Source: Levilactobacillus zymae (GTDB taxonomy: Bacteria > Bacillota > Bacilli > Lactobacillales > Lactobacillaceae). From it: 64,000 bases of DNA. A program made the position numbers and the translations under genes. The DNA lies in NCBI RefSeq assembly GCF_032190635.1, contig NZ_JAVLAS010000001.1, forward strand, positions 2,356,001 to 2,420,000, given 5' to 3'. The notes beneath the pieces are model-generated. The model saw only the letters and a list, made by a program, of their open reading frames with translations. It ran no database searches and was not told the origin of the DNA. How positions within the stretch are numbered: the stretch's first letter is position 1; each line of letters begins with the position of its first letter. Shown here piece by piece: positions 48,988 to 64,000 of this stretch.

Positions 48988-49033
48988 AAAAACACCAAAA
49001 CGGCCACCCATTCGTCAAGTGAACGGGTGGCCG
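48988..49033 (-). terminator. Expression-platform terminator of the TPP riboswitch
   Basis: Read leftward, a 15-bp hairpin with one G-U-type mismatch (arms CGGCCACCC and GGGTGGCCG at the ends) is followed by UUUU and a U-rich tail. It lies between aptamer and thiM, so ligand binding should favour termination. Confidence 0.85.
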
Positions 49034-49044
49034 TCGCCAGTCAA

Positions 49045-49140
49045 ACACGTTCCCTTCGCAAGTCTGGACTTGACAGGTTCAAAGGAATTGCGACAAGGTC
49101 ACATCTCAGCCCGCGTGCGGACACTCCTAGTGTTAGTTAT
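49045..49140 (-). ncRNA. TPP riboswitch (THI element) aptamer
   Basis: Read leftward the conserved blocks CTGAGATG, CCTTTGAACCTG and GCGAAGGGAAC follow in the right order and spacing, with the GGGG-C-CTGAGA type P2/P3 region (here GGGCTGAGATG). It senses thiamine diphosphate for thiM-thiD-thiE. Confidence 0.95.
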
Positions 49141-60860: not shown

Positions 60861-61808
60861 GTGAAGAAAAAACTAACTTTGGCCCTCCCCTTAGTGGGGG
60901 CGGCCGCAACCGCCTTATTGGCCAGTGAACACCTGTTTAATTTCGCGTTCAAACGGGTCAACTACGTCCCCGAAACCTCCGCGGATAAGCAGAAATACGC
61001 GGACGCCTACTACGCTTACGTCGACTGGTACCAGGCCATCGACAAGCAAACCTGGTACCTGCACGAACACGATGCCAGAAATCGGATGGTCGCCGAATAC
61101 ATCCCCGCTGAGACCGCCAGTGACCGCACGGTAATCATCGGCCACGGCTACAAGGGTAACGGCGAAACCATGGCGAATTTCGCTCAGATGTACCACAACC
61201 TCGGGTTTAACGTGTTGTTACCCGACGACCGGGGTCACGGCGAAAGCGCCGGTAAATACATCAGCTTCGGTTGGCTGGACCGGTTGGATTACCTGCAATG
61301 GATTCAGCAGGTCATCGACCGTAGCGACCGGCCCGTGAAGATTCTCCTGTTCGGCGTGTCGATGGGCGGGGCCACCATGGAGATGTTGTCGGGTGAAAGC
61401 CTCCCGCCACAGGTCAAAGCCATCATCGCCGACTGCGGCTATTCCAGTGTCGAGGCCAAACTGGTCTATTTGCTGAAGCGCCAATATCATTTACCCAAGT
61501 ATCCAATTGAACCGCTGGTCTCCACCATCTCTAAGCGGCGGCTGGGCTACTACTTAAACGACGTGACGGCGACCGGGCAACTCAAGAAAAACACGCGACC
61601 GATCCTGTTCATTCACGGTGAAAAGGACGTGTACGTACCGGTGGGGATGGCCTACGAGAATTACGCGGCGACCCACGCACCTAAGCAGCTGTGGATCGTG
61701 AAAAACGCCTCACACGCGGAGAGTTTCTGGATCAACCCGCAACGTTACCAGCAACGGGTGGTCCACTTCTTGAACACGTATTTCGACCCGCAGCAACCGT
61801 CGGCGTAG
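60861..61808 (+). CDS. Alpha/beta-hydrolase with N-terminal membrane segment
   Basis: 315 residues. MKKKLTLALPLVGAAATALL looks like a signal anchor, so the enzyme is probably extracytoplasmic. Catalytic elements: HGYKGNGETMANF, DDRGHGES, nucleophile LFGVSMGGATME, Asp in HGEKDVYVP and His in NASHAESF. Belongs to the serine aminopeptidase-like hydrolase group (Hydrolase_4-like); substrate unknown. Has its own ribosome site (AAAGGACGGATCC region). Confidence 0.85.
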   Translation: MKKKLTLALPLVGAAATALLASEHLFNFAFKRVNYVPETSADKQKYADAYYAYVDWYQAIDKQTWYLHEHDARNRMVAEYIPAETASDRTVIIGHGYKGNGETMANFAQMYHNLGFNVLLPDDRGHGESAGKYISFGWLDRLDYLQWIQQVIDRSDRPVKILLFGVSMGGATMEMLSGESLPPQVKAIIADCGYSSVEAKLVYLLKRQYHLPKYPIEPLVSTISKRRLGYYLNDVTATGQLKKNTRPILFIHGEKDVYVPVGMAYENYAATHAPKQLWIVKNASHAESFWINPQRYQQRVVHFLNTYFDPQQPSA

Positions 61809-61966
61809 GTCTTAACCAGAATCTAAGGACTTTAGATTTACTTTACCAAATCGTCAAAAAGTCGTCACGGCTTACCCCATTTTCTATTCACAACTCCCGG
61901 GTATAGTTATCATCATAGTAATTCGCCAGTAACGGTTACTAGTCAAAATCTTTATCCAATCCCCTT
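61809..61966. other. Gap before the small RNA candidate
   Basis: About 160 bases with no gene. TATAGT at 61902-61907 is a possible -10 for the downstream RNA, with a weak -35. Confidence 0.35.
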
Positions 61967-62110
61967 TTGAATTCTCTCCCCCTAAGAGAATTCAATTCCT
62001 CGTCAGGTTCTCCTCAAACCTGATGAACTCCTCAAATTTGAGTTTCTCCCCTCATAAGAAACTCACTCCTCATAAAAGTCCCTTCGGCTTCCTCGGCTGA
62101 AGGGATTTTT
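61967..62110 (+). ncRNA. Candidate small RNA with C-rich (anti-Shine-Dalgarno) loops
   Basis: A chain of hairpins: an 11-bp stem TTGAATTCTCT/AGAGAATTCAA with loop CCCCCTA; a 7-bp stem TCAGGTT/AACCTGA with loop CTCCTCA; an 8-bp stem GAGTTTCT/AGAAACTC with loop CCCCTCATA; then a terminator stem TCCCTTC/GAAGGGA whose loop holds TTCCTC, followed by TTTTT. Linkers also carry ATTCCTC, CTCCTCA and CTCCTCAT. All are complementary to AGGAG/GGAGG ribosome sites. No open reading frame is present. Confidence 0.6.
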
Positions 62111-62257
62111 GGTTTACCGCTAGGGTTTATCATAATATTTATAAGTAGTTTAGCTTGCCATTAACTCGCAGCATCCTATAATGGAACCATGAAACGTTGC
62201 ATATAATAAACTATACATCATTGTGATTTTACCCTTTTACAAGGAGGATCCTGTTTT

Positions 62258-64000
62258 ATGCCCGTCAAACGTCCCATTTTCCATGATTTATCGTTCTCTA
62301 ATGCCGGAAAAAGATGGCTTGAAGTCTCCACCCTGGTTCTCAGCCTCAGTCTTGGCACACTAACCGAACCGACGATTGCCCGGGCCGCCAGTAATAGCGC
62401 CCCCCTTTCCCCAACGACCGCGTCAAGTTCAACCGCGACGACCAACCATGCGTCCACCGCGAACTCCAGCGCCCCAACCAAGAATACCGCGACGACGCCG
62501 AACAGCCAGGTCCAGCAAGTCCGCGCGAACACTCGTAAGACTAATTCAAATATTATCCGCAATAGAGAAACGGGAACTACAGCCACACCTAAACTTTCCC
62601 CTCAGGCTCTAGCAGCCCCCGTCGTCACGCTTCCCCGGGCGGCCGCCAGTCAGGCCCCAACCACGCCAACCCCAGCTGCGCCCACCGCGGCCAAGCTGGG
62701 CAACGCTAAAACCTGGATTCCCGACGACACCCTGCGCGTTTGGTTGGAACGGGTCGCTCAGGAACAACTCCGAAAGGTTATAGTTGGTGACGAAGACGAA
62801 GGAAAACCCCTATATCCGGACGTCACAATTACCGACGACAACCTCGCGGACTACGTCGATAAGGTGCCCGCCCTCACCGACGACAATACCCAGATTTTAA
62901 CCCCCGATATTGCCATACCATCGGCCCCCGTCCCGCCAGCCAATGACGGTCCCGACGAGCATGGCGTCTGGCCCCACATTGACTTCCCGGACTACCCCGA
63001 AGTGAAGGTGGGCTTCATCCACGATTTAACCGGGATCGAACAATTCAAAAACATCACCGAATTCTCCCTTCAAAATCCCGAACGCGTCGACCTTACACAG
63101 CTTAAACATCTGTCACTGGCGTTCGCCCCCCACCTCCAGAAGGTCGTCATCCAGTACAGTCCCATGACGGCCGACGGCGAACCCCTAGTGGGCCCGGAAC
63201 TCGGCCTAAACGTCAACGCGCAAGCCTACCTCGACCAGCTACTTCCCCAAAATCCAGAACTGACCGATTTATCCCTAAGCGGGTTAGGTCTGACGGGGGG
63301 CCTGCCCCACTTTGACCAATATCCCCAATTAATGTACGCCAACCTGGTCAGCAATCACCTCAGCGGCCCCATTAACTTTTACCCGGGGTTCGTTCGGGAC
63401 CACGCGGACGTTACCGACGTCCATAACGACATTCACGTTCACCGGCTAGCCGTCACGAACAACGATTTTACCGGCTACTTACCGAGTGGCGACCTCAAAG
63501 GCCAAGTTGACTATGCCCAGAATCACATTCTAACGGCCCTCATAGACACCAGCATCGACGACGATCAGTTCTTTGACATCGGGACGCTTACCACAACGGC
63601 CACCCAGCCTACCCTAAACCTCACGCAACTGATCACGCACAACCTCACCGGTGAGCTCAGGGACCATTCGGCGGGTACGGTGGACGACGACTCCCAAGCC
63701 TTGACTTTAGCCCCCGCTAATGGTTTCCCGTTAACAATTTATCGGTTATCCGGCACTAGACCGAACGACGATATGGACGATGACGCCACGGACGACTTTA
63801 AGGTGACCCAGACGAACGGTGAATACATTGTGACGGTGACGCCCACCACCCCCAACGGGACCTACTGGTTTTCCGTCATCCCCAACGGCGATCCGCGGTC
63901 CGGGTCCAGCTACTCGGCCGATTTGGTGTTTCATTTGAATAATCAATTGATTCCCTCGAAACCTGAACCCACCCCGGAACCTGAACCCCAGCCACAACCT
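62258..64000 (+). CDS. Large surface protein with leucine-rich-repeat-like domain (3' end outside window)
   Basis: The frame is open from ATG 62258 (AAGGAGG upstream) to the window edge, 581 codons. The N-terminus SFSNAGKRWLEVSTLVLSLS is a KxYKxGKxW-like signal peptide. A Ser/Thr/Pro/Ala-rich stretch (residues ~50-140) follows, then from about residue 230 short leucine-rich segments (TGIEQFKNITEFSL, PELTDLSLSGLGLTG, FDQYPQLMYANLVSNHLSG), as in bacterial LRR adhesins. The last visible residues are Pro/Glu repeats (PEPTPEPEPQPQP) typical of a wall-spanning linker. A sortase motif, if present, would lie beyond the window. Likely an adhesin. Confidence 0.85.
   Translation, partial: MPVKRPIFHDLSFSNAGKRWLEVSTLVLSLSLGTLTEPTIARAASNSAPLSPTTASSSTATTNHASTANSSAPTKNTATTPNSQVQQVRANTRKTNSNIIRNRETGTTATPKLSPQALAAPVVTLPRAAASQAPTTPTPAAPTAAKLGNAKTWIPDDTLRVWLERVAQEQLRKVIVGDEDEGKPLYPDVTITDDNLADYVDKVPALTDDNTQILTPDIAIPSAPVPPANDGPDEHGVWPHIDFPDYPEVKVGFIHDLTGIEQFKNITEFSLQNPERVDLTQLKHLSLAFAPHLQKVVIQYSPMTADGEPLVGPELGLNVNAQAYLDQLLPQNPELTDLSLSGLGLTGGLPHFDQYPQLMYANLVSNHLSGPINFYPGFVRDHADVTDVHNDIHVHRLAVTNNDFTGYLPSGDLKGQVDYAQNHILTALIDTSIDDDQFFDIGTLTTTATQPTLNLTQLITHNLTGELRDHSAGTVDDDSQALTLAPANGFPLTIYRLSGTRPNDDMDDDATDDFKVTQTNGEYIVTVTPTTPNGTYWFSVIPNGDPRSGSSYSADLVFHLNNQLIPSKPEPTPEPEPQPQP

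Follow-up and report, generated by a model that had tools for sequence, protein, structure and literature searches.

The described systems closest to the RNA reported here include LhrC of Listeria and the csRNAs of Streptococcus. In the parts of PMC4132741 that deal with it, LhrC is presented as a multicopy, LisRK-controlled RNA with C/U-rich sites in loop, linker and terminator loop. Three of these sites, which bear UCCC, act, the UCCC sites pair with an mRNA, and a promoter element lies upstream of about -53 (same parts of PMC4132741). According to excerpts of PMC3091779, the csRNAs are controlled by CiaR and complementary to ribosome sites, their promoters carry TTTAAG-N5-TTTAAG direct repeats about 10 nt before the -10 hexamer, and CiaH has been reported only from streptococci. 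C-rich motifs that pair with ribosome sites, as proposed for the RNA studied here, are also known from the RsaE- and FsrA-type UCCC sRNAs, as cited in the same parts of PMC4132741. A further family, Ref84 (RF02846), comes from Enterococcus. The lactobacilli, important in food and in the gut, have few characterised regulatory sRNAs.

The RNA compared with these systems lies in the window, the whole stretch of 64,000 nucleotides of Levilactobacillus zymae DNA that was analysed. At its locus, no family of Rfam 15 reached its cut-off. Matches at 61800-62260 to rli36 (20.7 bits, cut-off 50) and to csRNA (RF02379; 19.8 bits, cut-off 57) were taken as noise. The best csRNA match in the same genome was located elsewhere with 24.1 bits, and nine of 14 control genomes also matched. 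The CiaR box NTTAAG-N5-TTTAAG was not found, its position being held by [T/G]TCACA-N9 in all 34 aligned loci. LhrC (RF00616) did not reach its gathering threshold anywhere in the window and had no match at E <=10 in 61800-62260. Among 398 genomes of the class, it gave one sub-cut-off match (locus L275, 44.7 bits against 110), the promoter of which did not look like that of a true LhrC. Ref84 was detected neither in the genome of the window (G000) at E 0.001 nor in 61800-62260 at E <=10, and the Rfam comparison did not link the window RNA to RsaE- or FsrA-type sRNAs. The anatomy of the latter differs as well. Elsewhere in the window, a TPP riboswitch was present at 49033-49138 on the minus strand (58.2 bits). 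A paper on the RNA in lactobacilli was not found in the open-access literature among the matches listed; related RNAs may already be in print in the sRNA survey of L. casei (PMC8220740).

LhrC and the window RNA share C/U-rich sites, multicopy siblings, an upstream promoter element and the mode of action proposed below. The window RNA differs in its larger numbers of hairpins and sites and in having one window-type copy per genome. Complementarity to ribosome sites and a repeat-box promoter near the -10 hexamer are shared with the csRNAs, whereas the box itself is TTCACA and not TTTAAG. Most likely, the RNA resembles LhrC and the csRNAs in action and is a member of neither family.

Structure and extent of the RNA

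The sequence-only reading had described a unit of about 140 nt with C-rich loops in three hairpins and a terminator. These loops were confirmed at 61967-62111, as were the C-rich linkers between the hairpins (Table 1). The hairpin positions stood, but the length had to be revised: a promoter, a 5' hairpin and a leader point to a probable transcript of about 61915-62111. The transcript is predicted to start 7-8 nt past the -10 hexamer and to open with the UAGUAAU/GUUACUA hairpin. All seven pairs of this hairpin were formed in each of the 33 loci that were scored (L028 was left out), the inner pair being U-G, U-A or G-C.

Region 61940-62130 folded with -62.7 kcal/mol (z -7.3) and the complete unit with a z of -9.24; in both cases, none of 200 shuffles folded as well. 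A detector for at least three adjacent hairpins with C-rich loops returned a single cluster from both strands of the 64-kb window, which was this RNA; the same detector missed the RNA in one of 34 loci of the genus. The terminator was absent from the output of a simple terminator scan. An open frame of 25 amino acids starting at 62023 inside the RNA was rejected, as its ATG was present in three of 34 sequences (alignment, by eye).

Table 1. Coordinates of the RNA, its parts and nearby features (window positions, except for the last row)
Feature	Position	Strand	Basis or remark
Upstream alpha/beta-hydrolase gene	60861..61808	+	conserved neighbour, outside the RNA
Conserved upstream region with 11-bp-spaced elements	61830..61869	+	alignment of 34 loci; spacing by eye
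TTCACA box	61887..61892	+	9 nt before -10; script on loci and whole-genome pattern search
-10 hexamer TATAGT	61902..61907	+	same hexamer in 32/33 script-matched loci
Proposed small RNA	61915..62111	+	~197 nt; predicted start 7-8 nt past -10; fold z, 34/35 genomes, covariation
5' hairpin UAGUAAU / GUUACUA	61916..61941	+	pairing scored in 33 loci
Unpaired C-rich leader UCCCC (DNA TCCCC)	61960..61964	+	alignment, fold
Hairpin 1, loop CCCCCUA (DNA CCCCCTA)	61967..61995	+	covariation, fold
Linker 1, UUCCUC	61996..62001	+	least conserved linker; UC common to the foot of hairpin 2
Hairpin 2, loop CUCCUCA (DNA CTCCTCA)	62000..62026	+	covariation, fold
Linker 2, ACUCCUC	62027..62033	+	nearly invariant; alignment
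Hairpin 3, loop CCCCUCAUA (DNA CCCCTCATA)	62039..62065	+	covariation, fold
Linker 3, ACUCCUC	62065..62071	+	nearly invariant; AUGA follows in many relatives
Intrinsic terminator, C-rich loop within TTCCTCG	62073..62111	+	fold; stem covariation in 10/10 pairs
Sigma-70-like site TTGCCA-N16-TATAAT	62155..62182	+	simple promoter scan
C-looped units of locus L140	870-960, 3600-3755, 5455-5592, 5800-5930		L. plantarum EGD-AQ4, by reading

Conservation and neighbouring genes

By DNA search, 34 of the 35 genomes of Levilactobacillus had one copy each of the RNA; the remaining genome is 72% complete. A plasmid search gave no match. The hydrolase of the window was 99% identical to its counterpart in L. 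zymae DSM 19395. The hairpin cluster was located downstream of the hydrolase in 30 of 31 named loci that belonged to Levilactobacillus or had 86-87% of the hydrolase in common with the window, and a second cluster was not present within the flanks of these 31. In the alignment of the 34 loci, the loop and linker motifs CCCCC, CCUCA and ACUCCUC were mostly near-invariant and the stems varied. Mean column identity was 0.94 for the loops of hairpins 1 to 3, 0.84 for their stems and 0.84 for linkers and leader together; the terminator had 0.63 in the stem and 0.70 in the loop. The comparison of loops with stems in relatives, proposed earlier as a check, thus came out in favour of conserved loops.

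The RNAalifold structure lacked hairpin 1 and contained a long-distance pairing of GAG with CUC, and a hand-written structure was therefore used for the covariance model R2. In the structure-fitted alignment of 34 sequences (33 distinct), from which a stricter E-value had excluded two weak matches on the opposite strand before counting, 95.2% of pair cells were formed against 31-46% in slid controls, and 30 of 36 pairs had changed on both sides against 8-15 in the controls; these counts lean towards the structure to which the alignment was fitted and are more safely judged against the slid control. Outside the genus, R2 matched 11 genomes. Matches in L065 and L074 and a second match in G026 (L072) were unconvincing by eye. 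Three loci assigned to Secundilactobacillus, the genus of S. oryzae and S. malefermentans (L063, L064 and L073), had an RNA with other stems and C-rich loops downstream of the hydrolase. A purB-like gene followed in L063 and L064, and the short stretch of L073 had another gene there.

The hydrolase gene preceded the RNA on the same strand in 33 of 34 loci, inside the flank of about 1.5 kb; it was beyond the flank in L019, and the named counterpart of that locus, L123, had it 1.2 kb upstream of the RNA. This constant neighbour is what an RNA derived from the 3' UTR of the hydrolase mRNA, or an elaborate terminator of that mRNA, would have, but such an origin is highly improbable. A stretch of about 85 bp directly 5' of the RNA was conserved among the 34 loci, and extra DNA separated hydrolase and RNA in L017, L019, L020 and L026, where the promoter stayed with the RNA. 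In Lactiplantibacillus-type loci, a related RNA was situated on the opposite side of the hydrolase. Transcription from the upstream gene only, named beforehand as the outcome that would speak against a discrete RNA, was made unlikely by the conserved promoter and the separating DNA. The proposal of a discrete sRNA gene is supported at the level of sequence, with a conserved promoter and a terminator of its own.

Downstream on the same strand, the surface-protein gene starts at 62258, 146 nt past the RNA. The surface-like protein (62258-64000, plus strand, 581 amino acids to the window end) did not match any Pfam family over the part read. Its proximity might suggest a special link to the RNA or a cis-acting leader or attenuator, the latter a reading that is hardly credible. 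The gene was present in the flank of only two of 34 loci and the RNA is therefore not its leader; a special link is not supported for the same reason. The usual neighbour was a convergent purB-like gene (named from sequence), found in the flank of 27 of 34 loci, with other frames between in several. Moreover, the RNA is closed by a strong terminator, after which comes a separate sigma-70-like site (Table 1) that is likely the promoter of the surface-protein gene. From the neighbourhood shared by relatives, it follows that the locus is old, and the surface-protein gene looks like a newcomer to it.

Promoter, sibling units and candidate regulator

The promoter TTCACA-N9-TATAGT spans 61887-61907. 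The combination of [T/G]TCACA-N9 and a -10-like hexamer was present in 34 of 34 loci, 33 identified by script and L028 by eye. The hexamer was TATAGT in 32 and TAATAT in one of the script-matched loci, and TATATT in L028. A good -35 element at the usual distance from TATAGT was not seen by eye. A simple promoter scan preferred an alternative, in which TTCACA serves as -35 and is paired with CATCAT 18 nt downstream, a hexamer less conserved than TATAGT in the alignment of 34 loci. Further upstream in the window, CTTTAG (61830), CTTTAC (61841), CGTCAAAA (61852) and CGTCACGG (61863) form the 11-bp-spaced elements, which are candidate response-regulator sites. A second TCAC element was located 23 bp upstream of the TTCACA box.

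In the 2.89-Mb host genome, TTCACA-N9-TATANT occurred twice, at this RNA and at a unit at C1:2514733. Five Levilactobacillus genomes had 11 matches, ten of which represented two sRNA-like loci per genome; the reversed control had two. The box was located directly 5' of the RNA and its siblings, which assigns the RNA to a set of sRNAs with a common TTCACA-N9-TATA box. The unit at C1:2514733 (L235/L179) comprised a 5' hairpin, had UUUUACUCCUCCAAAGUAA as its most conserved part and preceded a 5'-nucleotidase-like gene (named from sequence). With up to two mismatches, KTCACA-N5-TTCACA-N9-TATANT had 21 matches in the five genomes against four in the control, and 13 of the 21 preceded sRNA-like units by reading. 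A third sRNA-like unit behind the box in the window genome was C1:175284 (L184). It had UCCACCA in a loop, CUAACCA in its linkers and a terminator, and units resembling it were present in G005 (L182) and G031 (L192).

The pattern of the C1:2514733 unit, the box followed by TACTCCTCC 35-65 nt on, was found in 83 of 397 Lactobacillaceae genomes from nine of 40 genera (reversed control 0), among them 22 of the 25 Levilactobacillus genomes. Across the order, 38 of 295 genomes had it (control 0); these came from 15 of 74 genera and included members of two other families. Judged by sequence, the window RNA is tied to its siblings by promoter and motif style and not by alignable sequence. Eight loci scanned with Rfam contained only tRNAs at cut-off. 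In L. plantarum EGD-AQ4 (L140), at least four C-looped sRNA-like units were seen by reading within 6 kb of the hydrolase (Table 1).

Behind the same box in one other family (f5), three of four sibling loci scanned resembled Ref84 below its cut-off of 52 bits: L278 reached 43.7 bits, L283 37.6 bits and L277 36.6 bits, and L276 had no match. An ACUC motif in a loop and an UACUCCUU linker were also in common with Ref84, which has fewer hairpins than the window RNA. L277 was LhrC-like as well (33.3 bits, cut-off 110). The box-bearing Lactobacillaceae siblings L235, L240 and L250 had no Ref84 match. L235 weakly matched CcsR1 (25.1 bits, cut-off 65.3), an RNA with the CCUCCUCCC motif. The search with Ref84 matched 93 of 375 genomes of the order, 52 of them above cut-off, and the window genome was not among them. 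None of the best 30 Ref84 loci had the TTCA[C/T]A-N9-TATA box, yet in G898, G857 and G839 sub-cut-off Ref84 matches coincided with box matches, among the matches listed. Some lineages may therefore have swapped or lost RNA body and promoter. As for copy number, G1058, G1022 and G996, presumed Enterococcaceae, had six to eight Ref84-type matches per genome, and G981 and G962, also presumed Enterococcaceae, had two matches about 200 bases apart.

The box geometry, with N5 between the repeats in siblings and N9 to the -10 hexamer, resembles the spacing of CiaR csRNA promoters and pst promoters and thereby points to an OmpR-family regulator; the box is most likely the binding site of such a response regulator. 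At four of eight pst loci (L269, L272, L273 and L274), TTTACA repeats were 11 and 22 bp apart and the last one was 9 nt before a TATA-like hexamer (by eye), an arrangement that differs from the sRNA box in a single base. Membership of the window RNA in the PhoP (phosphate) regulon, with TTCACA as a variant PhoP box, would account for this shared spacing and for the sibling that precedes the 5'-nucleotidase-like gene. It is rather unlikely, as every one of the 34 window-type promoters had C at position 3 of the box, where the pst boxes read had T. The PhoP reading concerns the regulator and not the mode of action of the RNA. One two-component operon was preceded by a box match with two mismatches in one genome. 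Autoregulation as a lead to the regulator was rejected, since this operon had no box in three Levilactobacillus genomes or, by eye, in another genome of the genus it came from.

Pairing with ribosome sites and proposed function

The loops had been described as complementary to AGGAG-type ribosome sites, which fits both the sequence and the pairing energies. For seven of eight RNA segments, namely the leader and three each of the loops and linkers, pairing was stronger with 47 start regions taken from the window than with 282 coding stretches. These seven reached means of -7.4 to -9.1 kcal/mol against the start regions, which were chosen partly by their Shine-Dalgarno sequence, a choice that favours the result, and of -4.2 to -5.0 kcal/mol against the coding stretches. 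For comparison, the 16S tail reached -11.3 and -6.8, respectively. The eighth segment, the terminator loop, had no preference for start regions (p 0.26). Shuffled segments reached -6.0 to -8.4 against start regions. The true order exceeded the shuffles by 1.5-2.3 sd in the first two loops and in linkers 2 and 3. In the leader, linker 1 and loop 3 the shuffles paired nearly as well, within about one sd, and composition therefore explains much of the preference. The ribosome site of the surface-protein gene, scored separately on a slightly longer stretch, had -12.3 kcal/mol, and the 12 best of the 47 other start regions had -14.6 kcal/mol or lower. The anti-Shine-Dalgarno motifs are short, and therefore no specific target can be named.

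At the sequence level, the RNA has the features of anti-Shine-Dalgarno regulatory sRNAs, namely unpaired conserved sites, structure, promoter and terminator. Conservation pattern and pairing energies together support pairing with ribosome sites as in LhrC. Near-invariant, short, repeated motifs on covarying stems would also be expected of a decoy RNA, the C-rich motifs of which titrate an RNA-binding protein such as a KH-domain protein or ribosomal protein S1. CsrB-type RNAs titrate CsrA in this way via GGA loops. That extended target complementarity was not identified likewise agrees with a decoy. However, this role is distinctly unlikely, as the motifs vary by site (CCCCC, CCUCA and CUCCUC) and yet stay complementary to AGGAGG, and the UCCC sites of LhrC pair with an mRNA (parts of PMC4132741 on LhrC).

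We consider the locus to be probably a stand-alone gene for a trans-acting anti-Shine-Dalgarno sRNA, with transcription, regulator, mRNA pairing and repression deduced from sequence. It would be transcribed from its own promoter, in which the TTCACA box 9 bases before the -10 hexamer replaces the -35 element, aided by the 11-bp-spaced upstream elements and most likely bound by an OmpR-family response regulator. The resulting RNA of about 197 nt would consist of the 5' hairpin, three hairpins and the terminator and expose C-rich sites in the loops of these three hairpins, in three linkers, in the leader and in the loop of the terminator. As apparent copies of the 16S rRNA 3' end, these sites would bind several mRNAs at their G-rich ribosome-binding sites and block the start of translation. 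The window RNA would be one of several sRNA genes behind a common box, three such sRNA-like units being present in the window genome (this RNA, C1:2514733 and C1:175284).

As judged from its conserved features, the locus is a conserved sRNA gene uncatalogued in Rfam, of a known functional kind, with unusually many anti-Shine-Dalgarno sites and a promoter shared with siblings. This suggests that gene control in lactobacilli has a layer not described so far. With somewhat less than even confidence, we extend this to a regulon of mainly sRNAs in much of the Lactobacillales, in which one response regulator would use 11-bp-spaced [T/G]TCACA boxes in place of the -35 element to control several multi-site anti-Shine-Dalgarno RNAs, the three units of the window genome and the four or more C-looped units of L. 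plantarum among them. These bacteria are reported to lack Hfq in the parts of PMC3091779 and PMC4132741 concerned. If true, the regulon would be a stress-controlled broad brake on translation in such bacteria, and the window RNA, with about eight sites per molecule, would be among its most elaborate members, able to hold several mRNAs simultaneously. This arrangement raises the question of how targets are chosen by an RNA whose many anti-Shine-Dalgarno sites are nearly identical. A genus-wide sRNA gene with box-linked siblings in at least three families would offer an entry to post-transcriptional control without Hfq.
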